Below, piece after piece: positions 2,190 through 35,500 of a DNA stretch of 64,000 nucleotides. Within the stretch, counting starts at the first letter, position 1. Each line of letters opens with the position of its first letter. A program made the position numbers and the translations under genes. The stretch covers positions 47,059,777 through 47,123,776 of the forward strand of contig OX439050.1 of the NCBI GenBank assembly GCA_949317995.1, written 5' to 3'. Under the pieces are notes generated by a model. The model saw only the letters and a program-made list of their open reading frames with translations, was not told the DNA's origin and did not search any database. Source of the DNA: Acholoe squamosa (taxonomy: Eukaryota > Annelida > Polychaeta > Phyllodocida > Polynoidae).

Positions 2190-5100
2190 ATGGGAAAACC
2201 TAAGAAAAAGAAAACGAAGGATGGCAAGAAAAAGAAGAAGGAAGACGAGCCTCCTCCGAAAAGGGACCCAATGGCACCTGACTATGTTCCACCACCTCCC
2301 AAGCCAGGCGAAAGGGTAAGAGTCTAAAGTTTAGAACTTAAAAACTGTCATGGACATGGTCGTTTTCTAACAACAAGGGGGTGGGGGGGGGACACAATTT
2401 TCAGACCCCTCTTAGGGGGGAACAAAAAGCCCACACACCACTAGAGAATAAAAGGGGGGGACGGACAAATTTCAGACCCCTTGAAGGGGGGACGGAAAAA
2501 TGTTCACTGCGCATGCGCAGAATTTCACCAACCTCCCCCCGTTGTTAAAATATGACCACTCCCTAAACTTAGGCTAAAGAGGGTAAATTTTTTTATCCCT
2601 CCCCTCAAGAGGGGTCAATTTTCTTTTTAGGCCTCCCCCCCTCAACCCCCCCCCCGGGCCCTGTTGATAAATAAAGACTAGAGGTCTACTCCCTGAGGCA
2701 CAAGAGAAATTTTCGTGCCCATCTTTGATCTAGATCAATAATGGTGCACATGCAGGCTTTTTTTGCTGAAAAGAGGGTGAATGTTTTACGCCCCCCCCCC
2801 AAGAGGAGTCAAATGTTTTTACGCCCCCCCCCCCCACATTAGGAGGGATCAAAAGTAAAACAATTTGCGACCCCCTCAAACCCATCACCCCCCTGTTGAT
2901 TAATAATGACCACTCCCTTAAGCTTAACCTTGGGCTTGGCTTTTAATAGTTTAGGGAGTGTCTATAGTAAGAATATCCCATCTATAAGTATAAGACGCAC
3001 CCAGACATCGGGGTTATTTTTTAAGGCACGGGGGGGGATTTTTCTACAACAGGGTGTGTGTGTGGAGTTTTTCGCATGCACACGCAAAAATCTTTTTATA
3101 TCCCCCTTGATGGCGATCAACCCCCCACCCCATGCCAGAGAGCATGCTTTTCTGCTAAAATGAGGCCAAATCTTTTTACGCACCTGTCAATGTCTCGTTA
3201 CATGTCATGAAGTGAGGTAACAGGAGTCCAGACAATTCAGTTGATGATCCAGCTTTATTGTAAGATTGGCATGATGAGTAACTGATACAGTGTACAATAT
3301 AGTACTCGCCAGTCTGACCAAGCTATATCCTAAGCCAAGGCACCTGAGTGTCGTAGGGTCTAGGTTGGAGAAGAATAAGATGCTGAGGCTTGATCCTGAC
3401 TAGGTTATATAGTCAGGAGCAAGCCCAGATGACGTCGTGTCTATTTCTGTACTTTCTATTTTTAGTATAGGGAGCGACTCAAATATGCTGAGTCGGTGGT
3501 TCTGCTCAGTCCCAATCTGTGGTAGGAGGGGTGAGCTGCTCCTATTGGCTAGGTGAATCTAAAAAATAGTTGAGTTCTCCAGTGGGGGATCCACAGGAGG
3601 GAGCCTGGGGATTTCCCACTGGAGGAGGGCAGGTGTGAACTCTTCACCCTGCCAAGCTAAAAATAGGTTGACCTTGGTTTGAACTAGGGGGTAGCTTGGC
3701 CAGTTTGGTTTGAGTATGTCGTTCATAATTATAATACGTAGAATAGTCCATTGACATATCCCCACATTCCCACTCATCTCTGCATGAGGTTAAAGGGAGT
3801 ATAATTATAAGGAGTGAGAGTCTATATCGAGTCCATTGACATGCTCAAGTATAAGATGTGAAATAGGGGGCTGAAAAGATGTTCAGCGCTGGGTAAAGAT
3901 TGATATTACCAAGTTTCTTGTGAAAAGGGGGTACAATATTTGGTTCTACCGGTAGTAGTTGGTACAAAACATAGGGGCTTGGATAACAACTGATATTTTT
4001 CTTAGCTAAAACTACTTGAACTTGCATCCTCTCAATTGAGGCAAACTCTATGAACTAATTCAAAATAATCTGGCTTGAACACTACAAAAATAGATGCTAA
4101 GGGTACTAAGACTGCTCTGGCTGAGCAGGGTAGTAGGGGCATGACTAGGTCTGACTTGTTCATCATACATTGTCAAAATACATTTTCTATATCCAGTATA
4201 AAAATATACGGTAAAAATTACAAATACATCAGCGGTATAAAAGCACAGATTGTTTAAAAGAGGTTTTAAATAAGGTGAAAATATGTACATGCTGTCCTTA
4301 CATACAAGGTTTTAACAAATAAGTTAATGATTGAGCTGGGCAGTAGTGGTATCACTGCTAAGCTACATATATGGGCGAGGTGACGATCATCAGTGACATA
4401 CAGTAAGATGTGACCGAAGATCTCTTTTGGACTAGCTTGTACATAAAATAATTGAAAACACAAACTTGCATGCAAGGAGAAACTGTTCACCCAGAGCCGA
4501 GAGGTTGGTGAAAATGTGAAATTTCTAAAAAAAAAAATTTTTGGATTTTTGGAAAAGGGGGCATTTGGCCCGAGGTAGTTGTCACTTGTTACTTTTGGGG
4601 TTGAAAGGCTTGCCGAGGTGGCATTCTGTAGAATTTTAGTAGTGGAAATTACAGGCTCTGGATGTTCAACTTCTTGAGACAATAAATATTTCAAAACATT
4701 TTTCACACATGGTTTTCTACTGAGGCTAAAACCCATAAATACAATGACATGGTTGGGCTTGAAAAGAGGGATGGGGGCTCTGTGGCACCTGAAAGCTAGG
4801 GTTGATCTGCCAGCCAGGTCAACTCTAAGCTTACACAGAGTTTTTACAAGTAAATGTATGGTGGTTTATTGGTTAAGATGGTACAATATGAGTTTGGTTT
4901 TATTTTTACAATCGTGGAGAAATCGTGTGAACCTTGCAGATCGAATTAAAGGTCACATACAAATGAAAGCGGTACTGTGGTTCTTGGGGGGGGGGGCGTT
5001 TTAAATTGTGTCCCTACAATCGATAAATATGGAAGGAAGGTAAGAACAACACTGATTTGTAATTGAATTCGGAGGGGTTTACATGACTTTCTGAATATTA

Positions 5101-8100
5101 ATGTTTCCATGGTTTACTGTCTCCAGCACTGACACTGGAGGGGGGTAGGTTAGGGTGGGGTCTGGGGGTTCTTATGTAGAATCTGCCTCTTGCCCACTTC
5201 CTTCTGAGTGCAGCTCTTTTAATAGGAGTGCTGGGGTCTAAATCTATGTCTCTGAAATCCTCTTCCACCGAGGCCAGGTTGCCTGGTTCGGCAGAAGTAG
5301 AGGTTGAAGAGTCAGAGTCTTCAGACTCGGAGCTATTGTCATTTTTGTTGTCCTGGTGATCTAGGTTTGAGGTGCTATTGGTGAAGGTGGTGGTGGTGTA
5401 GTGTCTCTGGGATACTAGGGGTCTGAACCTGATGCCTGTGTAGGAGCAGGGGCAGACAAAACCTTCAGGGGTGCTGGAGCACAGTCTGCATCCTGCTTTT
5501 AGGCATTTTGGCCTTGCTGGTGTGCGGGGGTTGCTCCTCCAGTTGTAGCGGGCCTCTGGGATGGGGGTGTCGGCCCTTCTGCTGCGTGTATTTCCGCTGC
5601 CGCCATTAGGGTTCGTTCCTGCTGAGTATTGAGGGTAACTGGTTTCCTGACCTGGGTATTTCTCGGCTGAGGAGGTGTCTGGTCTTTCGGGGCCGGCTTC
5701 GTCGGTGTTGGACTGGTCCCAGTCATCTCGCGTTGACCTGTTCAGAAAACAACATAGAGCAGAGAAAACAAGGCATTAGAGACTGTGTCAGGTTGTATGG
5801 TTCACAATCAGGTCCACAAAAATACCAAGATTAACTCATGGTGCTAAAAATTGGTTAAGTCGACACTTGGGAGTACCATACAGAAGCAAAGGTTTAGGTT
5901 TGGAGCTAGGCGGGAGGCCGTATCCAAGGACTCTATGTTAATTTCAATGCTACACACCTGGCGGCGCCAGCGGACGGTCGCTGGGCCGTACGCTGCTCCG
6001 TCTCGGATTTTAGTTCGGGAAAATAACACCGAGAGGCGCCACTGCGCCAGCGTCTGTACAGCGTTTGGTTAATGTATGGGATTTACGTTAAGGCTTATGA
6101 GTTTACGGTGAATGAGAGATGTAGACTTGCACCAACCCTTCAGGGTTGGGACGGGGGCTGGGGAGGTTTACTTTGTATTTTAGGTTGGGGGGGGTTTGGT
6201 TTGGGTTCAAGGATTTTGGAAAGCGGCTGGAAAGGTTTGGATTTTTGAGGTTCGAAAATTGGGCCGAAAAATGAGCTTAAGGTTCCCGCGGTAGGGTCCA
6301 CTATAAAAGGGGAAGACGGCGTTTTTGACGTCAGAAACTGCTGAAATATTGACGGAGGAAGTTCGCACCAAACCCCGGAGATTTTGAAGGAGGCTCTGTG
6401 TTGCTTCGGCAAAAAAAAAAAAAGGAAAAGGATTGTCATGGAGGTGTCGCTCTCCATCCATGTCACGGAGTTGGGGACCGTTTGCCTGATGCTCCGCGTC
6501 GTTGAGCCGGTGGGGTGAGTCAAAATCTAATGGATGGATTCATTGTTAATGTGCTAATTTGTTCGTCGTTGAAAAACATTATGCTGTTTTTCACAGAGGG
6601 TGGCTTTGGTTTCTCTCCAGGGTGCGTGTGTATCTGGTGGTGGTTGGATGGGTGCCCTATGCGTGTCATGGTTTTAAGGGCCTGCAAGGGGGCCCCGGGG
6701 GCACCGGCAGCGGACCCTGTGGGGTTTCTGCTTAGGAGAGAGGTGAGTGATATTTCAGGAGTTTTTGAAATTTTGTGGGGCTATTTTTAGGTTTTTTAAT
6801 TAGGAGGGTTGAAATGCAACGAAAAATTTGAATCCTTGTAAGGGGTCGATGGGGAGTAAAGGGCTGTCTGTTTGGTTTCAGGGATATTGATATGAAGGCG
6901 TGGGTCGGTTGAGGACGGGCAGACAAGAGAGCCGGGGAGTGAGAGAAAGAAAGAAAAGGAAGATGTGAAGCCGGAGAAAAGGACTAGATTCCAGAAGGTG
7001 GCGAGGCCTAATGCGCTATGTGATTGACTGTGATTTCCCTGTGATTTATTATTGTGATTACGGCATCAACAGCCAGAAGGGCTCGGATCAACCTGTGATA
7101 AGTGACTTTGATAATATGCTTGATTCCTCGTGATTTTAATGTGATTGGCGCCAGAGAACCTGATTAATTTGTGATATTTGCTAATAATATAGAAAAGTCC
7201 ACCACCAGTTTAGAGTTTTGTTATGGATTTTGGGGCTTGTAAATTGGGTGCCGGTGTTGTCTGAATTAGATTGGTATAGTGATCGGGGAGTGGTAAGTCG
7301 GGGTATGTTGCAAGTCTACTGTAATATAAACACGTGCATATGTTATTGTATTGGCGTGCACACCACGTGTGGACGTTTATTTGGTTATGCATATTGTCAT
7401 GTGAGCGTGATCACGTGCGAAAAATTTGCATTTGGTGACTGGTTTCGGTACTGGGGACGCTCGGCAACGTCATGACGCTGCGTTTGGCGCGAAAATGCCC
7501 AGACGCAGCGTCAGCACTAGACGTCTGTGATCCGCTAACAACATTCAAAATTGGGTCAGTGGGGCTGCTATTGTATAGGTATGTGGCGGTATGTTTGTTT
7601 TAATGGGGCTATGTTTGTTAAGCTGATAAGACTGACGGGTAATGGGATGGGAGTCTGGAATGAGATGAGGCATGGCTCGGCATCGCCGGGCTGGGTTATC
7701 TGTGGGGTAGGGGGGGGGGGGTGGGGTATCCCCACATAGGATGTGTTATCCTGTGTGTGGCTATCCGGTCGTGTGCTGTGGTATGGTTGGACGGTTCCAT
7801 TATATGAGAAAATAGGGGTGGCCGGTGGCTGTAGAGCAATTTTGGCTACGAAGACATGTGGGTATCCCCACATAAATCAAGACGCGGACCTTAAGGATTT
7901 TGAACGGAAAAATAAACATACCGATTTCTGGTGGGGATTTGGTAGATATATCCTCCAGGGTGGGGTCGAACACGTACATGTCCTTAGGGGGTTGGTAGTC
8001 CTTTGGTGTGAATTTAGTTAGCTCCACCTGGCCGCTGGGTCTTTGGGTGCCCCTGGGCCTGGGGCTGGGGCTGCTGGGGGCCTGGATCCTGGGGATTTCT

Positions 8101-11100
8101 GGGATGTTGGTGTCTTCGATTGTTATATCCTGGGGTCAGCTGGAAGTCTGGCTGGGTCTTGGATTTGATGACCAGGGTCATAACATGTGGCTTCCCATTT
8201 AGGATCCTGTAGAGGGGTAGTCTCCAGAAAAGGGGGCAGCGAGGGTATCTCTCGAGCTGCACCACTCTTAATTGAGCGCCAATTATGAAGCTGACCTTGG
8301 CCTTCCAGTTGAGATCCAGGTGGCGGCCAAAGGGCATAGTGAGGCGGGGCTTTCCAATTTTAGGGGCCTTAATGAAGGGTGGCCATAGGTTGGAGCCGAA
8401 AATCATGGTTCCCACAACAAACTCGTATGTTCTGCCCTGGGAGTGGATGCGGAGGACAAACTGGGGCAAGCCATCGGATTCGTCTTGCCTACAGTGTGGC
8501 CAGTGTCTGCAGCATCTGGAGATGAAGAGGCGGGCCAGGTACAAGATGATCAGGACGGAGCCGATTGCCCACATCACATCGTAGCGTCCAGGAGTCTGGA
8601 TAAATTCCAGGCTTTGCTCCACGGGCTGTTGTGTGGGTGTCGAGGGCCAGTTGTTGTTGGCCTTGTTGATCAGATCCTTGAGATTCTGCCAAGTCGCTGC
8701 ATCCGCCATTCTGGGTGTGTTGAGTGCTAGATGGACTGTCACCAACTGAGCCAGGCGTGACACGCGCATCTGGATCTGGCATGTCATTGCACAACAGAGG
8801 ATGGCAATCAGAGGGGTCACTAAGTGGAACCAGATCGAATATTCCAAATGGTAACCAAGGTGTGTTAGTGAACTTGCTGACAGAAGAGAAGACTCATCTG
8901 ACAGACCTTTGGCTGCTCGTCTGAGGGTGAGTACGCTTTTAATTAAGGGTACTATTTTTTGGTTGTGTAAGGATTTGAGACGCTGGAAGTTAGGTAGTTC
9001 CAGGGACCGTGGCACGGTTGTCATGGTAACGCCTGATATGTTAGCTGGAGGTGAACCAAAATGTCGCCATAGTGGTAAGTTTATGGGGCTCATGGCCATG
9101 GGTTCCAGTGTTATATTTTGTACGCAGGTTATATTTGAATTGATCATAACCATGCCTGCATTCTTAATAGAGCATAGGCATGGTACTGACATGACTGAGT
9201 ATGCTGCATTGATCATTGGGATTTGTCCCGCATTGTGACACTGTAAGTAAGATGGCGACTTACCAGTAATCATGAGATATGTTGACCTAGAAATGGGTTT
9301 GATTAGGTTGGGTATGGGTGCAGCCATGTGTGCAGTGAAACTGCAGGTGTGGTGCACTGCATCAGGTAGGTCCAGGAGTAGGGACAGAGTGCAGGTGGGG
9401 TGTAGAGGTGATAGCAGGGGGAGGGGTAGGTTACAGCTGATGAAGGTGTCTTGTGTACATAGGTCTAAGTCTGCCTGCTGAAGCTCCATGAAATGGGCGT
9501 GGCTGGGAGACATGGCTATGTAGGGGGGTAGGGGCTGTACCAGGGTGTAACCTGTAGAGTTAACATCTGATGTGTCAAAGGGGACTGGAAAGGTTTCAGT
9601 TCTGAATAGGGTGTAAACATTATCCCCTAGTCCTATGGGTATGGGTAGTGAGATGAAGAGGGTGGAGGGGTCACTCCACTGGGCACTTACTCGTCTTTTA
9701 TAGTAATGACCTATGGGTATGTCAAGGATTGATATGCCTTGGTGGGCGCTACTCAAGGCGCTGGAGAGGTTGTTTAGGCCTGACCTGAGGGTGTCATGGG
9801 AAATTAAGTTGGGAGGGAGCTCGCCCTCCATTAAGCTGTTTATGGCACTTAATAAAATATCTAGATCCTCTTGAAGGTCGATTAGTGACTCAATTTGTGA
9901 GTTTGCTGCAGAAAATAACATGGAATAAAAGGTGTCCTGTCTGGCTTGGGATTCTAAATTTAAAATAATGTTTGAAAAGTTGGAATCTAATGTTTTTAGA
10001 TTTTGGGCCAGCAGGGACAGTGCGTCGTCAGTATCATTTTGGAATTCAGATAGGATGTTTAGGGAATTGTAATTGTATTCTGAGATATTTAATAGAAAAT
10101 GGGTGGCTAATTCAACCACATGCATTTTAGTGGCCAATCTTCTGTCAATGTCAGAAATGTCAGCGTTTAGAAGGTCAATTTCAGGTTGGGTTCCCAGGCC
10201 TAGGGTTGCTCTGAGAATATCGCCAATGATTTGTCCTGGGGCATTTCTGGCCTGACGGTTCCTGGGGTTGGAAATTAAATTAATCAAAAGGTCTAATGAA
10301 TTTTGGGTTTTGTCAAATAGGGTGCTAATCAATGTGTCCAGATTGTTGGTTGTTTGGGTAATGTATGGTGGGGTGCCGGGCCTAAGTAGGGGTGACACTC
10401 TATCAGGTCTTTGGAGGTTGGGGGACAGGGAGATGTTCAGACTGAAAACTAGGGGGTAGTCCATGAAATTTGAGATTAGGGGCTGTGGTAACTGGGTAAA
10501 CAGTGCTCCATAATTTGGTCTGAATACGATCCTTTGTGGTAACTCCTTATCCTGTGATCCATTGGTGAGGTTGAAGAGGATACACAGCACTATTAGAGGT
10601 ACTGCGGCTCTGTAAAAGAGATGTGATGGGGGGATTGAGTTTGTGAGTCATATCAGCAATTGGGTTATGTGGTGGGGGATTTTATGGTCGATTGTGTGGG
10701 AGGTGTCCTCCTGTGAAAGGGGACTGTAGGCACACCTAGGTGGGTGTAGTGTGGTTTGTTTAAACAGTGGGGGGGTGGTTGCTTGGCGAGGGTGTGAGGT
10801 GGGTATGATGGAGATGTGACTGGACCTGTGGTATTAGTAGGCTAAGACTAAATGGGGGGGTTGTGAGAGTAAAAATTTTGTAGCTTACCCTGTCAGGTTT
10901 ATTTCAGCAATGGGCTGTAGGTGGGAGTTTAGACAGGTTATTGGACCACATGTGGGTCTCAAGAATGGCTTTCTGAACTACTAATTCTATGGCGTCCCTG
11001 ATGACCAAAGCTCTGCCCGTCCCACTAAAGTATCTGGGAAGGTCTTTTAAAGGCTGGTCAGAGACCAGAAGTGTGCGCGCGCACAGCAAGGCTATATAAG

Positions 11101-14100
11101 CGGCTGTTTTAGGTTTGAAGGTGCTCCAATCTGGAGAAATTGGCATGTCACAACAGACATAAAGTAACATCCTCTTGACGAGGGTAGAGACCAACGGGTT
11201 TGATAGCGGCAGTTCCTTGTGGACTGCGGGGTCATTCAGGTAATATGCTAAATGTCTAGAAGTCATATTGAAGACCAAATTTTGGTGGTGTACAATGAGC
11301 TGCCTAAACTCAAAAATGTCTCTTCCTTCTTTCAATAATCCAACCGGTCCCAGGAGGTCGTAGATTGTCCAATTTTCACTGAAGAGAAGTTTTAATTTGA
11401 GTAAGCTACTTTTTTGAATAAGCTGTAAACCATACAGAGGGGTGAGTATAGGGGCACAAACAATTGAGTCAGGTATGGGGCGCGAAGTGAACAATCAAAC
11501 TTTTTACAGGTATTCTAGTACTCACACTGCCATTGGTTAATAGAGGTACCTGGGTAGCATGACATCAGATTATGTCATTGACCATATAAGAACGACTGAT
11601 AAAACTAGTACTGGTTAATGGGCACATAGGACAGGCCTACCTGGGCTTATTGCACGTCGTAAACGCCATGGTGATCCCTGGTCCAGGCACTTGTTCACTT
11701 GGAACGCTGATATGGTGTGATCTGGGTGATATTGTGGAGTGGCTAAGGTGGGGGTGGGCTAAGGCTTATAAACCCATCCGTGAGGGTGGCTATTTCTCAC
11801 TTTTGGATATCCCTATAGTGGTATGTCTTGCCCTAAAAAGGCTGGGCCTGATTCTATTGGATGGCTGCAGTTTGGGCATATGTCCCTTATGCAAATTTGG
11901 AACCTATACCCCGGTAATAAGCTTATAATTGGAATTCCTGGGGTCAGGTTTGAGATAAGGCGGGAGTGGAGAGGTCAGTTCACATGTCTAAAAATTTGCT
12001 GACCATGAATACATGTGTGTGAGAAACATCATGCCTGGGGTACCGAGCTGCTCTTAATTGACAGCTCATAAATATGGGGTTCTACCTGTATCAGCGCCCT
12101 CGTGCTAAACAGAGGTACAAACATGGGTGGGCATGGGGGAATACGAGCACCTACAATAGGCGTGTCAACTGGTAAATAGGAGCCCTGAAAAGCTATCTAG
12201 CCGGTGTATGCATGATTTTTCTTTAAATGAAAAACATGTACCAGAGGATACACTGCTGCCGTGGGCAATTTATGTGGCTACCTAACCATAGCTGGACAAA
12301 ATTGTGTGCATATGCTGCCCTTGAGTGGTTGACAGTGCGGCTGGTTGAAGGGTTTGATCCTGGGATCAAACAGTGTATAATTGGGCTCATTGGGCCTTTG
12401 ATAAATAATTTAAAGGAAAAATAAAATTGGTTTGAGAAAAACGAGATATATATAATAAAAGGATAAATATAAAAACAAAAGGCGTGCGAGGTGATAAGTT
12501 AAGAGGTGAGTGTTAGTAAATCTTCAAAGAAGAGAAAAAGGGGGTACCTGATGATATGGGGTGCCGCTGAGGGAATTTGTTATCATCAGGTCGGGGCTTT
12601 GAGGTCGGTGGTCACATGTGTAGGGTGGGTAATTGGGCCTAGGTGTGTGTGAGTGCGGGTGTCCCTGTAGATAGCAGGGGTGTGGCACGTGGCCTGAGTG
12701 TGGGCCAACAGCCGTGGTGAGTGTTGGTATGTGTGTGTGTATGGGGGGGGGTCGGGGTTGAGGGGTGTTTCTGTGTGTGGGGGGGGGGGTATTTGTGCTT
12801 TCTCTATATGTGATTTCAACGAAATTTCATTGCTTCCTTTTCTTTGCCCTTTTCTTGGGTGATGGGGCAAAGGTGATGATACCTTTCTTTGCCGGCCTTC
12901 CTCTCTTTTTCTTGAGGGGAGGAGCTGGTGTATTGGTATCAGCAATTATGCTTGAATCAGGGTCGAAGAGAGTTTGTACAGGACCAGTCTGGAGCCTTTT
13001 TATGATGGCTTTGGCGCTGGCTCTAGTAATTGGTCTTCTCAGCCTGGACACATGTACTGCCTTTTTGAAGACATGTCCATCCTGCAACCTTTTTAAAATT
13101 GCAGTTACTGATGAGGTCATCTTAACTATGATGTAAGGGCCAGAGTATGTGGGTTGCAGCTTTTTGGTGGTGTGTTTCACCAGGAGGTTAGGTATATGTA
13201 AGTACACCAACTGACCGGTATTGAAGGTGGCTACCTCTGCAGAGGCGTCATGCTTGGCCTTCATCTTTTTGTGGGCCTTTATCATGCTCTCTGCTGCCTT
13301 CATTTGAATTTCATCCCTGAGATTTAATAAATGAGTGGCTACATTTTCTTTTTGTGCCGGGTCAACATCTTCTGTTGCTGTGATCAGTGCTAATGCAGCC
13401 TCTGTGGGTAGATGGGTTTGTTTTCCAAATACCAGGAGATTGGGTGAGTAACCCAAGGCACTGGAGACTGTGTTATTCATGCTAAAAATCACAGCTTGGA
13501 GGAAAGTCGACCAATGTTTTTGTGATTTAGACACAAAGGCTCTGAGGGATGATTCTATTGTCTGGTGTTGGCGTTCACATAGACCTTGAGATCTGGACCA
13601 GTGTGCGCTCCCTGTGACATGCTTAATACCAAATTTATTGCAGAAGAGGGCAAAGAATTTTGAAGTGTATTGTTTAGCATTGTCAGTGTTTAAAACTGAG
13701 GGAGTGCCATGGATGCAGATCACTCTCTGAAAGAAACCAAGGGCTACCTCAGCGCTTGTGTTGTCTTCTGTGCACCATGCTGTTACATGTCTAGTGGCGT
13801 GATCTGTGACCACATGTATGTGGTGGGATCCATTAACAGCCTTGTTAAATGGTCCTATTGTATCCATGGTGACATGAGAGTAGGCTGTGAGTACAGGTTC
13901 ACGGAGTGTCATTGGTGATTTTAGGTTTTTCGGCCTCTTTTTGGTGGTAAGGCATGTGTGACATGTGCCACAGTAATCAAACACCTGTTTGAACATTGAG
14001 CGCCAATAGTACCGTGACCTGATAGCTGCATATGTTTTCATTGAACCCAAGTGCCCTCCTAATGGGGAGCAGTGTGTGGATTCAATTAATGATTCTGCCC

Positions 14101-17100
14101 ACTTTTCTGGAATCACAATTTGAAGGGAGGGGTCTAGGGATTTACCCATGACTGTGTCAGTGATTCTGAAAAGTACCTCATCTAGTATGATGAACTGATC
14201 ATGATTGGCTAAAATCTGATTTGTCAAGCCTTGATCTGGTGGCAACTTTCCATCCTGAATGTAATTTAGCATTGATGAAGCAAAAAGATCTTCTTTTTGT
14301 GCTTTAATCAATACTTCTCTAGAGGGTGTGAGTGAGGGGTGCTTGCAAATTTTGGTGATAGCCCTCTCAGCCAAAGGTAACACTTTGTGTGACAGCTTGG
14401 CGCGTCTGGCATTGGCTGCCTTAACTGATACCCTGGGTGACCTAGACTTGGGAGGTCGACCTCTTGGCCTTGAACCAGCTGGCTTGACCTTTGTGGGTCG
14501 GCCTTGTTTGTTTACAGCGGTTCTGGACCGTGATTGGCTGGGGGCTGGGGGTGTGTCTTCCTGGGAGTTCTGTGACTGTGCCCTGGTCAAGACGCACAGC
14601 TCCGTTGGCGCTGCTAGTGAAGCTAAGTGGTTTCTTTCAGAGCTATTTTTCTTTGCAATTACACCTTTGGGTGGTTTGCCTGTGCTTCCCCAGATTTTAC
14701 CTCCTTTTAGAATTGATCTAGGGGGTCCCATCTGGATTGGGTTCTTGGGTACTGGCTCGTTGGACCTAAAGACTTTGGTCATGGAGATATCAGAGAAAGT
14801 TAATTTCTTGGGGGGGAGAATAATTTTCCCCTGGGATCTAATTGGCACTGGGTCATCAGAGCTGGGTGGGTAGGATCTCCTGGATAGGAAATCTGCCACA
14901 AAATTTGCTCTGCCTTGCAGATACTTCACCTCAAAGTCGTAAGACATGACTGTGTCTACCCACCTGGCTAGTCTCCCATTAGTAATGTTCTCTTTTTTAT
15001 TAAAAAGGGAGACCAGGGCAGTGTGGTCTGAGTACACTTTGAAGTGGGCTCCATCCACATAATGGTGGAACTTTTTAACTGCAAAGACGATGCCTAGAAG
15101 TTCTTTGTCTGTTATTCCATATCTCGTCTCCTGTGGTGTCAAACCTCTACCTGCAAATTCAATTGGTCTATAGAAACCATTTTCATCTACCTGTGTGATC
15201 ACAGCTCCCAAGCTATAGTTGCTTGAGTCTGTAAATATGACAAATGGCTTGCTGTAGTCAGGGAATTTGAGGACAGCTTCAGTGCAAATTGAAGCTTTGA
15301 TTTTCTCAAAGGCGCGCTGGCAACTAGTGGTCCATTTAAAGGTCCCTTTGGTGGCTTCATATAGAGGTGCCATTATGTGGGCAAAACCTTTAATAAACCT
15401 TTTGTAGAATTGTGCCATGCCATTGAAACATCTAAGGTCGTGGATGTTTTTAGGTGGAGGGAAGGTTTTGACTGGCCAGATTTTGTCTGGGGAAGGTGAC
15501 ACACCGTGTTGATCTAGAGAAAATCCCAAGAAATCCATCTTGGTTGTGCCGAATTCACATTTTTCTGATTTCAGTTTGATATTTCCCTTGATGAAAAGTT
15601 TGAGTACCTCATCTAGGTCCTGCAGGTGTCTTTCCCAGGTGGGGCTATAAATAGCCACATCGTCAACATATGCTACTGCATTTCTGTACTTGCATTTCAT
15701 GAGCAATTGCTCCATGACATTCATGAAAGACAAACCTGAGGTTTTGAGTCCCATTGGGAGAACTTTGGCCATGTATCTGGTTCCATTGGCTGAAAAGGTG
15801 GTAATAGGCCTAGATTCTTCCGCCAGGGGAATTTGATGGTAGGCACTATATACATCTAATTTTGAGAAATATTTTGCACCTGTTCTGCCAACTTGTTGCA
15901 TGAGGTCGTCTGCTCTGGGGAATTGGTAGGAAAAAGATTTGAGGTTTTGATTAACCCATCTGTAATCCACTACCACTCTCCAGCCTGAGGCTACAGATCT
16001 GTCTCCCTGAGGTTTGGGTACTAAGAAAGCTGGTGAATTCCATTCACAGGGCTTGGTACATTCCTCAATGATTCCCTGTTTTAAATGTTTATTTAGGAGC
16101 TCTCTTTGGAAAATTTCTTTATGAGGGGACATTCTGTATGAGGGCCTGTTGCAGGGCTTGAAATCTGGAATTAATTCCAGCTTGACCTCATTCTCAGTGT
16201 TGGAGCCAATGGCGCTGTCATCAATCACAAAAGCCTGCCTATTCTGTTCAACAATTTTACGCACCTGCGTTTTTTGAGTCTCAGTGAGCTGCTCACAAAT
16301 TTTGTATTGTAGGGGTTCATTACCCTTGGGAAATTGCTCCAGGGGGTCTTCACCACAATTTATTGGAAAAAGCTCGCTGGCAGGTGAGACATGGTTCAGT
16401 GAATGATGAGTGTCCAGGGGGCCTATTGGTATAGCCTTTTTCATGTTGAAAGGTTTGAAAATACCTAGAGGTGTGTGTTTCTTCTTTAAATGCAAAGGAA
16501 AATCATTTGGATTTGCCACAGTTACCGGTATTAATTTTGCACTAGTCTTGGGTTTAACCAAGGCGTGCTTAATCAAGAAAGGTAGGGCTGGTTTGATATT
16601 TTCAGTGATGCCTGTCAATTTATTTAAATTTTCTGAACCGTTGACAATAGCATTGAGAGTGGTTTCAGAGTTTGGTGGTATTGTGATATTTTCAGCAGGC
16701 CTGATTGTGTTTATGGAGGGAAGCTTGGGGCCAAAACTAAGCTTAGCTTTGTACTTGGTCATGAAGTTTACTCCAAGAATGATGGGGTGATTTAATTTTG
16801 GTACAACATGTAATCTTGTAACAAATTCTTTGCCTTCAATTAGGAAGCTGAGTGTAATGGCATGGTTTACCTGTACTGTGGATCTGTCTGCTAGGAGGAC
16901 ATTCATACGTGAGCGTCTTCCATGTTTAAAGTTTGGGGTGTGTATTACCTTATCTGCCATTTTTTGACTGATAAAAGATAGGGATGCTCCAGAGTCTACC
17001 AAAGCTCTATAGGGGTGGTCATTTATGTCGACAAAGACTGCACCTTTAGTTAACTCGGTATTAATGCGAGAGACCTTACCTTGCTGCCCATACTTATCTG

Positions 17101-20100
17101 ACTTGATTCTCAGTTGAAGCCGTGCCACTCTGCTACTGCTGTCCTCGTAACAGTCTTCGCTGTCTGAAGAGGAACTGTCACCAAAATCCAGGTTGTTGTC
17201 CTTGGAAAAATCCATTTTTGGCCGCTGTAGGGAGTTGATTTCTGCATCACTTTGAATATCAGTTGGGTGGTGGCTGGCGGGGGGCGTTCCAGATTTCATA
17301 TCCACTGTGGTGGGGGCGGGGTGGTTTGGTGCTTTGCATCCTTCCCCTGAAACCTATTCTTCGTCATCATAGTCTGTGTCTTCATCAATGAAGTCTTCAT
17401 CACCATCGTTGTGATCATGATTGTCTTCATCAATGTTATGTAGGTCAGCGTTGCCCTCAAGTTCCGTCGGATCACTTTCATTGTTATTCCTGGGGAATCT
17501 GCTGGGTGTGGGGTCTCTGGTCCTCCTATTCTGGTAAGGGGGACTATTGCTGTTTATGATATCAGCCTCATGTGTGACCTTTTTAAAGGAAACCTGTTTA
17601 TTGTTTGCTGGGGCTGTGGCCACTGTGATGACTATTTTGTTGTCATCCCTGGAGGTAGGATTTCTGGAGGCGCTTTGTGATCTAGCTCTTTGCTGAGGTG
17701 GTTTATTTCTTCCTCCAGAAGCATCCTGAGACCTTGACCTTCTGAACCTTCTGTAATTGGGGTCAGATTGGTTGCTGGAGCCGTTTTGGGTCCTGGTCTC
17801 ATACTGCCTGTTGTAGTTGCCACTGGGGTACCTGTCATACTTTTTATTGTTGGAGTATTGGTTTTCCTTTCTGGGTGTGCCACTATTGTTTTTGTTACTG
17901 TTCATGGCACAGAGGTCTGCTTGTTGGGTCCCAGCCATGGCCATTTTATGTGCTTCTATGCGCAATTCCTGTGTAAGGGCCATTTTTTCTGCATCAGCTA
18001 TGGTTTTGGGCATGTCAGGGAGGATTACTGATTTAATTTGAGGCTTAAGCCCATTAATTAGGTAATCCACTTGAACTGACTCCTCCAGGTTGCTGTTTGC
18101 CAAGAGCAGGGTCATGTCTTCTAAGTACTGTTCCACTGTCTCATCTGGCTGTTGTGTCCTGTTTCTATAACCTTTGCTGATGGTTGCAGGGTCCGGGGTG
18201 CCAAAACGCTTCAGGAAGGCTGCATATACTGCCTCATTGTCATACATGATGGGCTTCTCAAAAATATTGGCGAAGAACCATTGAGCTGCCCTGCCCTTTA
18301 GGAAGGTGTATAGGCAGGAGGCGTGCAGGTGTTGGTGGCGGGGGTATACATTCCTGATCCAGAACTTAAATTCTGTGATGAATTTGGCGGCAGACCTGTA
18401 CTCAGTTGGTTTGTCAAATGTCTCAGGCTTATTAAAAGAGCTGAGTTGGGCTGAGGAGAGTTTGTCATCACTCAAAGTCATTTGACCCAAACCGCTGGCG
18501 ATGTGAGATTGGCCTATCATTGGTATCATAGGGGTGGAGTGGTCGTATGCCTGGCGGTGTCCTGTTGGATGTGCACCTGTGCTTTGGGAATACAGGGTTT
18601 GCATGGGTATAGGCATGTTGCTGGGTGTACGAGCATGAGCAGGGATATAGATACTACCTGCCACTGTACCTAATGTGTTAGCATTGGCCTGCACTGGGGT
18701 GGTGGCTGGAGCTGCCATCTGGTGAGTAGCGGAGACACTAGGAATATCGTCTCGGGTCGACCTGTGTGAGGTGGGCGTGGCACCCAATAAACCAGCTGGA
18801 GTGTTGTTCTGGAAGGTGCTGGGTGGGCTTAACCTTATGTCATTGCCAGCATGTTGGAAACCTGGCATGGTAGGTGCACTGGGGGTCTGTGAGGCATGAG
18901 GTATACCCAAGTTTGCCGGTGAGGAGTGGGCAGGAGGGGGCTGGAGTGGGGGCCTGTGGCCATAAACTGAGCAAATCTCTCTCCTAACATCATCCATGTT
19001 CCTGTTGATGCGCTCAGAGATATCTGCTGCCATCATTTCAGATCTCCTCAGGACATCTGCATTATCTTCTGCAGCTCTCCTGTGTGATTGTATCAAGTCG
19101 CGCTCCATCTGAGCCCTCCAGGTGTCCATGTTGTCTAACCTGTCGTTGACCCTGTTTAGATGGCTGGTGTGCTCCTGGCCTACCCTTTGGATTTCAGCTG
19201 ATAGGAGATTAATCTGGCCAGTCAGTAAATTGCTTAAGGAATCACTGACTGCCTGTGTACATTCTCTTACCAGATTCCTGGCCAGGTCGTCCTGATCATA
19301 CCTGGGAGGATGTGTAGTGGGTGTCCTGCTGTCCATCCTGCCTCTGCGTAGGTGAGGGAAGGTGATTTCAGGATCGTCCTCAGAGGTTAGGCTGTCTTCT
19401 GAGGTGCAGTATGGGGTGGCTCTTCTCCTGAAGATCTGGGAGGTGGCTCCTATAGCACCTGCTACTGCTGAGTCTATGCTCCTCAATACCCTATAGTAGG
19501 GGGGTGTCTGCCTTCTAAGAGGTGAGGTAGACTGTGCCCTCCTTCTCCTGGGGCTAGGTAGGGGTGTATAGTCTGAAGAGGTGGCCCCTGTGTCCAGGTT
19601 TGGGGTATTGAGAGTGTTTGGTGGTGTTGGGGTAGCCTCAGGGGTCGGGGTATTTAGATATGACCTGAAGGGGTCACTAGATGTGGTGGCGTCAGGCCAC
19701 TGCTCCTCTAGTATTCTATTAATGCGACCTAAAAATGCTGAGGGACTTTCACCACACTGTGTACTGTGAGTGTTGGGGGCTGGTGCCTCCTGAGCTCTAT
19801 TTGTCCTTACTGATCTCCACCTATTGATAGCTGATCTTATCCTTTGTCTCCAGAGATCAGATTCAGGTGGTAATGTAGGGTCAGGGGGAATATAACTGTC
19901 CCAGGTGAGTTCAGAAGGGTTGGGGTGTGTAAAACCAGCTGGGGGTGAGGTGGTGTCTGTACCGGTAGCAGGCTGCCGAGGTAATGTAGGTATGCTTTCT
20001 AAGGCGGCCTGTAATCGTGGTGACCTGGGCTCTAGGTGTGAGTCTAGGTCTAAGTGGCTTGGTGAAGCTACAGGTGTAGATGATGTTTCACCTGGTAGAC

Positions 20101-23100
20101 CAGCAAGTCTTAGGACTGGGGATTCAGCACTTGAAAAACCAGGTAAAGTCAGATTAAGTTCTGGTGCCTGTGATGTGAGTGGGGTGCTGGTCTGTGTACC
20201 GGTATTATTGTCATCAATTGTTGATGAAAAAGTTTTGTTTCTACTCACAGGTGTTGGCTTGGGTGTTAGAAATGATGGTGGTAGGATTGGATCCAACAGA
20301 AAGGCGTCAGGTGACGAGTCAGATGACGGAACAGTCTGCTGCTGGTCTGGGGCTGCTGCTGGTGCTGCTGCTGCTGCTACTGCTGGTGGGGGCGCGTCTA
20401 GCCCTGGGGATGTAACGGCATCTTCTGTAAATGGCTCTTTGGTTGTTGTCTCACTTTGATTCATGGCTCATGAGAGGTGAAAACAATGGGACGTTACAAA
20501 TAGGGTTCTCCACCATTGTCAATGTCTCGTTACATGTCATGAAGTGAGGTAACAGGAGTCCAGACAATTCAGTTGATGATCCAGCTTTATTGTAAGATTG
20601 GCATGATGAGTAACTGATACAGTGTACAATATAGTACTCGCCAGTCTGACCAAGCTATATCCTAAGCCAAGGCACCTGAGTGTCGTAGGGTCTAGGTTGG
20701 AGAAGAATAAGATGCTGAGGCTTGATCCTGACTAGGTTATATAGTCAGGAGCAAGCCCAGATGACGTCGTGTCTATTTCTGTACTTTCTATTTTTAGTAT
20801 AGGGAGCGACTCAAATATGCTGAGTCGGTGGTTCTGCTCAGTCCCAATCTGTGGTAGGAGGGGTGAGCTGCTCCTATTGGCTAGGTGAATCTAAAAAATA
20901 GTTGAGTTCTCCAGTGGGGGATCCACAGGAGGGAGCCTGGGGATTTCCCACTGGAGGAGGGCAGGTGTGAACTCTTCACCCTGCCAAGCTAAAAATAGGT
21001 TGACCTTGGTTTGAACTAGGGGGTAGCTTGGCCAGTTTGGTTTGAGTATGTCGTTCATAATTATAATACGTAGAATAGTCCATTGACACACCCCTTCCCC
21101 TCAAGATGGGTCAAAAGATTTTATGCCCCCCCCCTGTTAATGAATAATGACCACTCCCCAGAATAGGTAGGGATGTTTTTTGACCCCTTGACATAAATCG
21201 ACTCTCCAGGTTTATAAAACCTACATGTCAATTGTCATAGGGGAAGAAGGGCGGGGGGGGGGGCTCTTATTAGCGCCTCCCACGCCGCGTAGCGGCGGTA
21301 CCGCGAAGCGGTACGGGAGTGCGCTATGATGATTTCATTTGCCCCATGTGATGAGGTCTCACAATACAAAATAACAGTGGGAGGCGTTTTTTTACGCGGT
21401 CACAACGGCATTTCTTGTTTAGAGAGCATCGTGAGGGTTGACAGTCAAATTCTAGGTAGCTAAGGACCTGGCAAAGGGTCAAATTACATAGGTTATATAC
21501 TAGAAAAAGTCACCTTTTGCTGATTTATTTTCTAATATTGGGATTTAAAAATATTGCATTAAGTATGTGGTGTAGATTTCAGATTCTGTAATGCATTTTG
21601 CCGAAGGTGGTCTAGATCTTTTCTGATGAGGGTTTTAACACCATATATCCCCATGTTCTAGGCACAGCCCTAAAGTCTGTCTGCTGAAAAGAAATGACTT
21701 CTCAAATTTGAATACATTTTGCAGCTATTGAAGGTGCTAACTACACACAAAGTGGATGAAAAGGAGCTGCATGGGTTTAAGGTGTCAACACGTGCCCTCG
21801 AGCAGCTCACTGCACAAGAGATCCGTGACCTGCGACTCGTTTTTGACGTCTTCGATATGCAAGGCAAAGGGTAAGCGCTCTTGCATGTACTACAGTGTAC
21901 TATTTCTGGGGTCTCGTGATGTGCACAAAGCTGTCCTCTGAACTTGAATTTCACTGAGTACCACAGATAAGCACTGGTGACTGAGAACTTAAATCCTCCC
22001 ACATGCTGATTACTAATTTGGAGCAGTCCATATCTCAATGATCGGGTAGTATCTGATCAGTTTCAACATGCCAACAGGTACTAAGTATGCACAGATTAGT
22101 CAAGTCACAGACATGATTATTTTTAAAGATAGCCGTTCTCCAAGTTTTTTTTGTTTGTTTTTCTTGTGTGATTTGTAGAGAATATTTCATACCACAACAT
22201 TGATAATCTCGGGGATCTTAGAGAGGGGGAGAGATCGTCAAGAGGACCCCCGGGATAGGACCCACATCAGACAACTCTAAAATGCACTTGAACTTCAGGT
22301 GATGAGTCAATAATGATTCTGAGATGACATGTACTAATTCACCTTACAGGTATATTGGCCCTAACGAGGTGCGGAAAGCTATGAAGGCCCTGGGATTTAA
22401 GGTGAGCAGAGACCAGGCCAGGCAACTCATACAGGACGCCAGCCTCAGGAGCGGAGGGTAAGGCAACAACTACAGGCCTTGTTACTGAAGTAGGGGCATT
22501 ATAATGTCCCTATTATCGTCGTATCTGACCATATGAGTAATAAAGTATTGATATACCGATACCAAACTGTCACTTTTAATCACTGTATATTGAATAAGCG
22601 CCTGTGTATAAAAGGACCAGGGGCGGTTATTCGCAATAATAGTCATTAATTAAACAAAGGTGCAATAAATTTGGCCAACAGCTAATTAATACCGAAAGGC
22701 CAAGCGCAATTAAACATTATGTCATTGAGTGTATAAATTTAGATATATGTACTGAAACGGATAATAATTGTTCATTTTTCTGTACCTTTCAGGGTGATCG
22801 ACTTTAATGAATTCCTTGATGTTATCATTGACCGACAAGGGGACTCTAGGGACATATATGAAGAGATCATGCAAGGTTTTAAGATGTTTGACTATGGTGA
22901 GTTTAATACATGCACCATTCATAATCTGCAATAATTGTGTACTTCTTCCGCTGAACGCTACTCCTTCTGAATGCTCTCATTAAAATATCTTCATATTCCA
23001 AAGCCACCGCTAGTAGGCAAACAAAGATTCATCGCTTCTCATTTTAATTTGACACATATTTTTATTGTGTCTTATTTCAGAAAGGACCGGTAAAATTTCA

Positions 23101-25341: not shown

Positions 25342-25344
<3 letters not shown>

Positions 25345-25718
25345 AGCGTTTTCCGACTCTATGGTTAATAAAGAATTACACAACTCCGACAGCTTGACTT
25401 CAGTGTCTTTTATTTCCTGGCAGTCCTCGCCACACCATCTAAGTCTTATATCGTATATATTAATCCGGAGATAAGCCTTTTAGAGTTCTGCTCCTCTCTG
25501 TCTGCAACTCGGAACTAACTAATCGGAGTAACAACTCCCTTATTTATACATAGGCAGATACTCCGACCCCGGCCCGCTTTACGGCAGGCCAGCGTCGGAG
25601 GATCTCCTCCGCCGACTACTATTGCCGACGTAACCGCGTTACTTCAGGACCGCTGGCCTCGCCGCCCCCACACCAGGATGGTTTCGGCTCCGCCAACGGC
25701 CCCTCCGTCTCCGCCACA
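25342..25718 (-). repeat. 3' LTR of the 10-kb element
   Basis: 377 bp, appears identical to 35021-35397. In element sense there is a TATAAATA box (25548-25541) and an AATAAA (25414-25409) about 130 nt later. Confidence 0.95.
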
Positions 25719-25733
25719 CTCTCCCCAACTAAT
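25719..25733 (-). promoter_or_regulatory. polypurine tract next to 3' LTR
   Basis: Element-sense ATTAGTTGGGGAGAG directly abuts the 3' LTR, as expected for the plus-strand primer. Confidence 0.7.
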
Positions 25734-26015
25734 CTATAGCCTTACCGGGAGAAAGAGTGTGATATTACCCTCCTGCAGATGGGTTTCCAATTTTGAATAA
25801 TCCTGCCACGCCATGGCCCCTGGGCGTTTAAGTAAATAGCTACACATAACATACACACAGTAAATCCTACTTAAACCTCCTCTGTAGGCGGCATTAACTA
25901 CTAAGTAAACCGAATCCGCCGTCCCCTATGCGGAGTATAACCATAACAACAACTTTTATACAATAATACGACGTCATTTCGTCTGGATCCGGCAGACATT
26001 CTCCGCCCGTTCGCC

Positions 26016-27461
26016 TCAGGCTGTCTTGTCGCCGCCCTCATTGGTTCCAGCCTTGGTCGTCCGCGCCGCCGACGTCTTTGGCCACCGCTGTCCGCAGCGG
26101 CTGCAGCATCCCTTCTGATCACGGCCATAACGGGTCCGGGTAACATGGACCAGTTCAATATCCCCATTGGGGAGAGTGTGAATGGAGGAAGATTGCAGTC
26201 CCCCGGGTATAACCCTCATCTCAGGTCCTAGGGTCCGAGGCTGCCCCAGTCGTCTAGAGTGTTCCTTGAGGGCCTCCGGCCCGGTAAAATCCGAATGCCA
26301 TGGCATAGCCCCATCCTCCTCCGCCTCCTCGTCCCTATTGTCACCCGCTTTATCTCCTTGTTGATCTAGCAGCAGGCGGTGCACCTCCTCTACCCCCGCC
26401 AACCCCTCAGTGCTGGCTATTCCCCCTTCCCCCATATCTCCTATAGGTAATCCGGTTATTACAATCACTCGGTCTGTCTCAGTGTTGGGTAGGGGCTCCG
26501 GATCCCCAGGCCCTCCGACCACCGTCTCGACCCCCTCCGGCACCATCACCATAGTCTCCGCCCGTCCACTCTCCTCCCCCACTTCTACTTGCAGCAAGAG
26601 TTCCCCCCTGGGCGAGCAAAGGACTAACCCGTCCAACCCCACAGTCACGGATCGGGGGTACCTATCCAACTTGGGTAGAGCAAATAAGGTCCCCGGCTCT
26701 ACGAGGGGGGTCTTCGGTACCTTCTTCTCCGCCTGTCCTTTCTCCTTCACCGGTGTCCCTACGGAACACGATTGAAATTTACTCATTAATTGGGCGGTAC
26801 CCTCATCCATGGATCGGTTCTGTATGGCCTCCTCCTCCGCCTCTTTTAACACTCCCTCCAGGCTGAACTTCCTCGTAGACTTTCCCGCCCCTTTTCCTTT
26901 AGGGCTTTTACTTTTAGTTTCCATCTCTTTCCTCAGTCTTTCTTTCTCCGCCTCTTTGGCCTTCCTCTCCTCCTCCTCCTTTCTCCGCTGTTCCTCTTCC
27001 GCCTTCCGGCGCTCCTCAGCCTCTCTGGCCTTCCTCTCCGCCTCCTCTCTCTCTTTCCGTTTAATTTCTCTTTTCTTCTTTCGCTCCTCCTCCTTGGCAT
27101 CGCTGAGTACGGCCAGGAACTGGGCTTTCAGTTTAGGGCAGGATTGGACGTATGCCGGGATGGCCACCTCCTCCGACTCCTTGCTGGTTTCATCCTCCCC
27201 TTCCACCTCCCCCACCTCACCCTTCTCCGGCGGCTCAGGCGTCACGATTGTAACTGTCTTCAGGATGGGTTTCGGTTTGCTAGGGGAAGGTTTACTCATA
27301 TCCTCATAGGAGGGCAATGTCTCGGGACTGGCACCGGAGAGGGTGGGTTTGGGCTTGTTAACTAGTTCGTAAGGGGGCTGCTTCTCGGGGCTAGAGTCCA
27401 GCCCATTTCCCCCTAGTCCCAAGCTCTCTCCGTCCTCCCCACTCGTGGCGGAGATGTCCTC
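26016..27461 (-). CDS. ORF4: charged coiled-coil protein, in frame after UAG
   Basis: This frame begins directly after the UAG that ends ORF3, in the same reading frame, and is open for about 482 codons. No ATG occurs near its beginning (the apparent start at 27422 is TTG), so it is probably made as an extension of ORF3. Numbered from 27422: a Pro/Lys-rich N-terminal part, then a long Glu/Lys/Arg coiled coil at about 108-170, a basic Lys/Gly stretch, and a less charged C-terminal half. There is no similarity to env: no signal peptide and no membrane span. The function is not known. Confidence 0.7.
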   Translation of the reverse strand, partial: EDISATSGEDGESLGLGGNGLDSSPEKQPPYELVNKPKPTLSGASPETLPSYEDMSKPSPSKPKPILKTVTIVTPEPPEKGEVGEVEGEDETSKESEEVAIPAYVQSCPKLKAQFLAVLSDAKEEERKKKREIKRKEREEAERKAREAEERRKAEEEQRRKEEEERKAKEAEKERLRKEMETKSKSPKGKGAGKSTRKFSLEGVLKEAEEEAIQNRSMDEGTAQLMSKFQSCSVGTPVKEKGQAEKKVPKTPLVEPGTLFALPKLDRYPRSVTVGLDGLVLCSPRGELLLQVEVGEESGRAETMVMVPEGVETVVGGPGDPEPLPNTETDRVIVITGLPIGDMGEGGIASTEGLAGVEEVHRLLLDQQGDKAGDNRDEEAEEDGAMPWHSDFTGPEALKEHSRRLGQPRTLGPEMRVIPGGLQSSSIHTLPNGDIELVHVTRTRYGRDQKGCCSRCGQRWPKTSAARTTKAGTNEGGDKTA

Positions 27462-27464
27462 CTA
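27462..27464 (-). promoter_or_regulatory. in-frame UAG joining ORF3 and ORF4
   Basis: ORF3 ends GCU GCC UAG GAG GAC and the same frame stays open for about 480 codons, without its own ATG at the head. It is either a programmed readthrough stop or a single recent nonsense change in one about 1,040-residue protein. Confidence 0.6.
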
Positions 27465-29135: not shown

Positions 29136-29143
29136 TGTAGACT

Positions 29144-29178
29144 GACCGTTAACGGTCCTTCCCCCGCCTTTTATTGGG
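29144..29178 (-). promoter_or_regulatory. palindrome and TATA-like box upstream of ORF3
   Basis: The perfect 14-bp palindrome GACCGTTAACGGTC (29144-29157) lies 8 nt before the ORF3 ATG, preceded in element sense by CCAATAAAAGG (29178-29168). Either could serve an internal promoter. A possible acceptor CTCATAACAG also lies in the gap. All of these roles are inferred. Confidence 0.4.
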
Positions 29179-29200
29179 GAGAACCTGTTATGAGGGTTGC

Positions 29201-34980: not shown

Positions 34981-35004
34981 CTTCTTTCTCTCGTGGGTCT
35001 TCAA

Positions 35005-35019
35005 ACACCGCTGTCACCA
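35005..35019 (-). promoter_or_regulatory. primer-binding site
   Basis: One nucleotide inside the 5' LTR, in element sense, TGGTGACAGCGGTGT starts with the TGG expected opposite a tRNA CCA end. The tRNA is not assigned. Confidence 0.6.
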
Positions 35020-35020
35020 A

Positions 35021-35500
<480 letters not shown>

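Follow-up and report, generated by a model that had tools for sequence, protein, structure and literature searches.

Introduction

In Errantivirus, a -1 frameshift lies between gag and pol. Envelope-carrying gypsy elements are reported to be widespread in metazoans (PMC13172572, citing Chary and Hayashi 2025), so an env gene alone is not new in this group; the Env of Errantivirus is related to the baculovirus F protein (PMC12440569). Here we describe a long terminal repeat (LTR) element from the genome of the polychaete Acholoe squamosa, found in a stretch of 64,000 nucleotides of assembly GCA_949317995.1 (contig OX439050.1, positions 47,059,777 to 47,123,776), hereafter the window. The element is single, occupies positions 3185-21088 (17,904 bp) on the minus strand and reads gag, an in-frame UAG, pol, X, env, a variable stretch and Y, where X and Y are accessory genes and the variable stretch holds a cassette that is swapped between copies. 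All coordinates are positions of the window, and the element's sense is that of the minus strand. We read it as belonging to a Ty3/gypsy (Metaviridae-type) family that carries an envelope gene, has amplified recently and follows a complex, retrovirus-like plan, and put the probability of this reading at about 80%.

Several described systems come close, and what we say of them is limited to the parts of the cited articles that were covered. Like the metazoan envelope-carrying gypsy elements, Errantivirus included, the element has a Ty3/gypsy Pol, an env and probable spread between cells; its 17.9 kb, its X and Y, its swapped cassette and its in-frame UAG between gag and pol set it apart, by description only (PMC13172572). 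The planarian giant Burro is also of gypsy type and very large, with an env-like region and extra functions, but it exceeds 30 kb and encodes env within a large polyprotein, in frame and flanked by gag and pol, whereas the genes here are separate and env follows pol (PMC6431247). Foamy-like elements of fish are similar in size (up to 17 kb) and in having accessory open reading frames (ORFs), but they are endogenous retroviruses, whereas the Pol described here is Ty3-type and without a tether (PMC6431247). Juno, Vesta and TelKA of bdelloid rotifers are LTR elements with an env-like or other ORF3, and the F-type plan of the TelKA env (RxxR, fusion peptide, coiled coil, cysteines, transmembrane segment) resembles that of our Env; in these elements ORF3 follows pol, and the text covered describes neither a spliced accessory pair nor a swapped cassette (PMC5408684). 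Lokiretroviruses and Odin elements are relatives of Ty3/gypsy elements and retroviruses, and the former bear env, as our element does, but they have a dual RNase H with a tether, which we did not find here (PMC9040795). The literature that we searched, which did not extend to the central survey (doi 10.7554/eLife.108449), yielded no Ty3/gypsy element with a gag-pol-X-env-Y set or with swapped cassettes; the accessory genes and the swapped cassette look new.

Such a family is informative about the route by which LTR elements turn into complex infectious agents. Constraint on env and on accessory genes is measurable here in a family of gypsy type, so the passage from gag-pol-env to regulated complexity becomes open to study outside Retroviridae, and a cassette swapped among near-identical copies is a natural record of recombination, with diversity kept at one spot.

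A very young family of full-length copies

An earlier sequence-only reading of the window had given the element's limits exactly, and its claims on the LTRs and the target duplication held when examined: base-by-base alignment of the two 572-bp LTRs, which have TG...CA ends, shows 0 differences, and CACC stands on both flanks. We searched the window's own genome (1.48 Gb) for further copies. From 1070 first-look candidates, 40 LTR matches were scored, giving 17 LTR pairs spaced 17,085-17,337 bp and 6 singles. This near-equal spacing makes the length a family trait; the earlier reading had named extra length absent from other copies as what would refute it, and the outcome went against that refutation. 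In 4/4 pairs compared, the window copy among them, the LTRs show 0 differences, and the four copies lie in four different 4-bp duplications. With 0/572 differences the divergence is below about 0.5%, so the family is very young; together with the many near-identical copies this bears out the very recent mobility that had been proposed. Frames are largely open as well, with no stop in 50 of the 52 env matches scored (6869 candidates) and in 137 of the 150 X matches scored (1512 candidates).

The same reading had called the element intact, with open gag, pol and env. All three frames are indeed open, but at about residue 838 the Env of the window copy departs from the frame of the 29 other fetched copies, 26 of which have an env frame of 949 codons. 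With its Env tail out of frame and its X out of phase with the exon-1 AUGs (see below), the window copy is not fully intact.

Classification from Pol and Gag

Along Pol, Pfam matches follow the order protease (PR), reverse transcriptase (RT), RNase H (RH), integrase (IN), which is that of Ty3/gypsy. The closest solved chain is Ty3 (E 9.7e-90, 305 bits), which aligns continuously with residues 404-839 (RT and RNase H, the latter domain at 658-789); foamy and other retroviral chains reach about 100 bits or less. Neither a tether nor a second RNase H was found with Pfam or in the solved-chain alignment. After the integrase core there is an SH3_Tf2-1 match of 24 bits, below the cut-off of 30, with GPY inside the aligned stretch. 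The element thus shows the Metaviridae features of PR-RT-RH-IN order, a single RNase H after RT, TG...CA LTRs with a target duplication of 4 bp (4/4 copies; 4-6 bp in Metaviridae) and a GPY/F module, and lacks the CG...CG ends and 3-bp duplication of the Troyka type (PMC12440569, in the part covered). Judged by domain order and alignment, Pol is Ty3/gypsy (Metaviridae-type). Membership among the errantiviruses, which the label "errantivirus-like" had implied, is not supported: in place of the -1 frameshift of Errantivirus, gag and pol share one frame across the UAG, and no Env family matched above cut-off.

Among the matches listed (120 of 160 at E 1e-3 in a set of 5.8 billion proteins), the nearest to Pol are three proteins at 56-62% identity. 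These three and the window Pol form a 4-row group (support 100) inside an 8-row group (support 100) that has no named member, in a tree of 110 rows that includes the window Pol and no reference errantivirus; a short core excluded 12 of the 121 matched proteins. RGRP motifs, which resemble AT hooks, occur twice in the window Pol and also in P0007, and are absent from P0008 and P0009 (the latter cut short); a motif of this type occurs in 1 of 11 rows of P0010-P0020 and in 5 of 106 beyond. Scans of viral contigs (queries Pol, P0007, A1, A2 and A3) and of genome contigs (A3) confirmed no relatives. Gag matches Retrotrans_gag at E 1.6e-4, under the cut-off of that family; two PPxY motifs were found as often in 62/2000 shuffles, and a search of Gag for CCHC gave none.

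Constraint on env, X and Y

The env gene was assigned by layout and constraint, not by homology. Its product has a signal-like segment, RQAR at 131, a helical stretch, eight cysteines between residues 397 and 508, segments resembling transmembrane (TM) helices at 605 and 691, and 11 sequons. One heptad window of the helical stretch is better than shuffles (22/1000), and six others tested are not. By layout, this plan is that of a class I/F-type fusion protein. In Pfam, no F family matched Env at E up to 10; the only matches were a sub-threshold one to a torovirus spike, over the helical part, and one at chance level.

An older family in the same genome (loci L039-L041) shares the order X then env, with broken env frames, and is 59-68% identical in X and about 70-81% identical in the main blocks of env. 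Compared with this family, dN/dS is 0.13, 0.11 and 0.10 for env and 0.25, 0.31 and 0.27 for X. Among the young copies, synonymous changes outnumber nonsynonymous ones 157 to 59 in env (14 pairs, pN/pS 0.12; 0.18 against the window copy) and 52 to 31 in Y (7 pairs, pN/pS 0.18). Locus L042, a young copy with 6 changes relative to the window X, was left out of these selection claims. Y is open in 14/14 copies over the fetched part, with full frames of 223 or 225 codons; in L055 and L056 the fetched parts began at or inside the Y exon, but in the overlapping L077 and L071 the acceptor is present and the start is open.

Neither X nor Y matched a Pfam family. One relative of X was found outside the genome, P0127, with 47% identity over 95%. 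Y has five cysteines in 20 residues, an acidic/serine run and an arginine-rich run, and from the cysteine cluster and the two runs we guess that it is perhaps a small nuclear regulator. Among dinucleotide shuffles, a sense-strand stop-free run of at least 225 codons (Y) in the 3' 4.3 kb appeared in 8/1000, a second-longest run of at least 199 codons there in 0/1000, and a 196-codon run (X) in the pol-env gap in 18/1000. Codon-usage scoring, which is weak, placed Y at the top (0/117 flank frames as high) and X no better than flank frames (31/117 as high). The excess of C over G on the sense strand is common to every internal segment, gaps included (skew -0.13 to -0.62; extra regions -0.16 to -0.62), and the right flank ranges from -0.10 to +0.10 (21 tiles of 1,344 bp and 12 of 2,276 bp). 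A blast comparison of the element's interior with the window flanks and with itself gave no match. Beyond Y, at 4266-4865, lies an unverified sense frame of 199 codons, a candidate only.

Predicted expression plan

Gag and pol share one frame across the UAG, which is kept in 10/10 other copies read, and this suggests read-through to Gag-Pol. A splice donor is predicted after 20455, following the third gag codon; this and the other splice sites are predictions made with scoring matrices. A leader as open as 66 codons arose in 38/2000 shuffles in its phase and in 121/2000 in any phase. The acceptors of env and of Y both stand in the leader phase, that of env in 30/30 copies and that of Y in 11/14, those with an exact match to the motif. 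These predicted sites support a retrovirus-like splice layout and agree with the sequence-only reading, which had seen a large env-bearing Ty3/gypsy element with extra genes and such a layout. Alternatively, Env may start in the gag-AUG phase by way of a weaker acceptor.

In this scheme, full-length RNA would be translated into Gag and, by same-frame read-through of the gag UAG, into Gag-Pol. The leader, which is open from inside the LTR through the primer site, would be joined to env and to Y by a single donor just downstream of the gag AUG. X lies between pol and env and is probably spliced as well. Copies would spread by particles that require Env, which would keep env under selection between genomic copies, and co-packaged genomes would recombine, shuffling the old, divergent cassettes that lie between env and Y onto a near-uniform backbone.

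The phase of X varies within the family. Just after its acceptor, a homopolymer (window 11408-11430; loci L009-L038) varies in length among copies that are otherwise nearly identical, and its length determines the phase of X relative to the acceptor, so that 30 copies fall into three classes of 12, 5 and 12, with 1 unread; L029, from the class of 5, has a broken X frame, and its class means little. The length differences are either phase variation or assembly error.

A swapped cassette between env and Y

When the 3' pieces were put into one multiple alignment, the resulting distance of 22% was meaningless and pointed to cassettes. In most of 16 fetched copies compared with the window, the cassette core between env and Y is replaced by sequence that shows a poor alignment or none, and the sides are 79-100% alike (the right side of L035 lay outside the fetched stretch). 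Eight forms, assigned from the last ~420 bases of each env locus, occur in 30 copies that are ~0.5% apart in env: A in 8, C and E in 5 each, B in 4, D and F in 3 each, and single forms in L022, which is kin to D, and L035. Forms A-G have a common C-rich composition, and most are remotely similar to another form (tblastx to 6e-31); E is similar only to F (1e-4), some pairs show no similarity, and a shuffled control gave 0 matches. The form in L035 (stretch L078) is a type C cassette plus ~600 bp of A/T-richer sequence unlike the other forms, perhaps a nested insertion.

The cassettes are not linked to env. Over 27 copies (L010, L022 and L035 left out), copies with the same form (58 pairs) and copies with different forms (293 pairs) have an equal env distance, 0.0053; L010 stands apart at 0.0114. 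This equality implies that old cassettes sit on a uniform backbone and have been reassorted relative to env, and recombination between co-packaged genomes best explains the shuffling.

One conserved block of the cassette, 6607-6726, has substitutions with a three-base period. An antisense frame over it is stop-free for C-F, B-F and B-C (pN 0.18-0.32, pS 0.62-0.72), and the same ratio, with one stop, is seen in the A pairs and in D-G. What speaks against an antisense exon is that the sense frame with the same third positions gives a similar ratio (lower for B-F), but with 3-5 stops. The antisense frames are short (44-61 codons), none was found in three E copies, and a second conserved block has no clear frame. 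We regard an antisense exon as a lead, no more.

Alternative explanations

The element might be an ordinary gypsy element with env that was lengthened by later junk or nested insertions, as the absence of Pfam families for X and Y and the parts of the pol-X gap and 3' end without an assigned gene would allow. This is extremely improbable: the constancy of the LTR-pair spacing and the constraint on Y largely refute it, X is constrained too, the extra regions share the element's strand skew, and nothing in the interior matches the flanks. A true retrovirus, foamy-like or a lokiretrovirus, would account for the splice plan, the accessory genes and the UAG between gag and pol, and the fish foamy-like elements approach it in length and accessory ORFs (PMC6431247, in the part covered), but we consider this very improbable in view of the continuous alignment of RT and RNase H with Ty3, the far lower scores of retroviral chains and the lack of a tether or second RNase H in the searches above. 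Spread within cells alone, with the constraint on env and Y only apparent because a few young source copies made all the others, finds room in a family that is very young and star-like, with L010 apart, and for which the pol control is too thin for comparison. We think it unlikely, since neutral copying would not yield env differences that are so strongly synonymous, and the comparison with the older family has the same sign. An origin of the cassettes by capture from the host or by faulty assembly is suggested by their poor alignment over most of the core and by the composition of the added ~600 bp in L035, but six forms recur in 3 to 8 of 30 copies each, forms A-G are alike in base composition, and most have a remote relative among the others; we therefore hold this to be quite unlikely.

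Several results weigh against our preferred reading of a recently amplified, envelope-carrying Ty3/gypsy family with a retrovirus-like plan. At its best acceptor, the window X is out of phase with every exon-1 AUG, and this, together with the phase variation between copies, leaves the expression of X unexplained. Among the young copies alone X shows no clear constraint and is uninformative (12.7 synonymous and 21.3 nonsynonymous changes, ratio 0.48 in pairs and 1.14 against the window copy). The young-copy pairs are not strictly independent lineages, and the pol control is thin: counted codon by codon, 5 pairs of a 130-codon piece yield 4 synonymous changes and 3 nonsynonymous ones (ratio 0.21). 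No homologue of Env was found at E 1e-3 in the 5.8 billion proteins (7996 candidates scored), and structure prediction gave no usable model for Env (mean pLDDT 33.7) or X (39.5). The RNA around the gag UAG is not unusually stable (z 0.96; z -0.86), and translation of Gag would be hampered by the best-placed leader AUG, which precedes that of gag.

A bolder version of the preferred reading is that a Ty3/gypsy lineage itself evolved the full complex-retrovirus plan, with an env leader that crosses the primer site, two conserved accessory genes and, between env and Y, an allelic cassette that perhaps holds an antisense exon, is kept diverse and recombines between proviruses. We offer it tentatively, as somewhat doubtful. 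If it were true, the cassette diversity is what one would expect if host recognition or silencing targeted the cassette.

Feature coordinates and other observations

Table 1. Features of the 17.9-kb element in window coordinates.
Feature	Position	Strand	Description
5' LTR (element sense)	20517..21088	-	572 bp, identical to 3' LTR; TATA-like at LTR positions 346 and 456, AATAAA at 498
3' LTR	3185..3756	-	572 bp, identical to 5' LTR
Left target-site duplication CACC	3181..3184	.	4 bp
Right target-site duplication CACC	21089..21092	.	4 bp
Leader frame	20455..20654	-	66 open codons, three in-frame AUGs; starts inside LTR, crosses primer-site region, ends at predicted donor
gag	17354..20464	-	1036 aa, ends in UAG; late capsid-like domain, two PPxY, no CCHC knuckle
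pol	12827..17353	-	1508 codons stop to stop; PR-RT-RNaseH-IN, SH3/GPY-type end; gag frame continued after UAG
X, accessory gene	10904..11494	-	196 codons; predicted acceptor 11422; one outside homologue (47% identity); dN/dS 0.25-0.31
env	exon 8014..10609	-	stop-to-stop frame 8014-10647 (877 codons); predicted acceptor 10609
Variable cassette core	6346..6977	-	outer limits 6166-7203, against some forms
Antisense open frame	6550..6735	+	61 aa, over conserved cassette block 6607-6726; coding a lead only
Y, accessory gene	exon 5098..5737	-	frame 5098-5775 (225 codons); predicted acceptor 5737
Polypurine-tract region	3757..3786	-	same in 4/4 copies

Rfam and tRNA scans of the window were empty; tRNA-Ala is a tentative candidate for the primer. 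CpG depletion fits a methylated genome, no more.

A second LTR element lies at 25342-35399 on the minus strand, in a (TA)n tract, with 379-bp repeats identical over their full length. It has a gag-like frame (33625-35013) with CCHC and a weak SCAN match, a pol (29201-33643) whose product is 26-27% identical to the Pol of the 17.9-kb element, and, after pol, two more frames, one of 598 aa that weakly matches C2H2-like zinc fingers and a charged one of 481 aa. At 60349-61412 the window also contains a tandem array of ~28 copies of a 38-bp unit.

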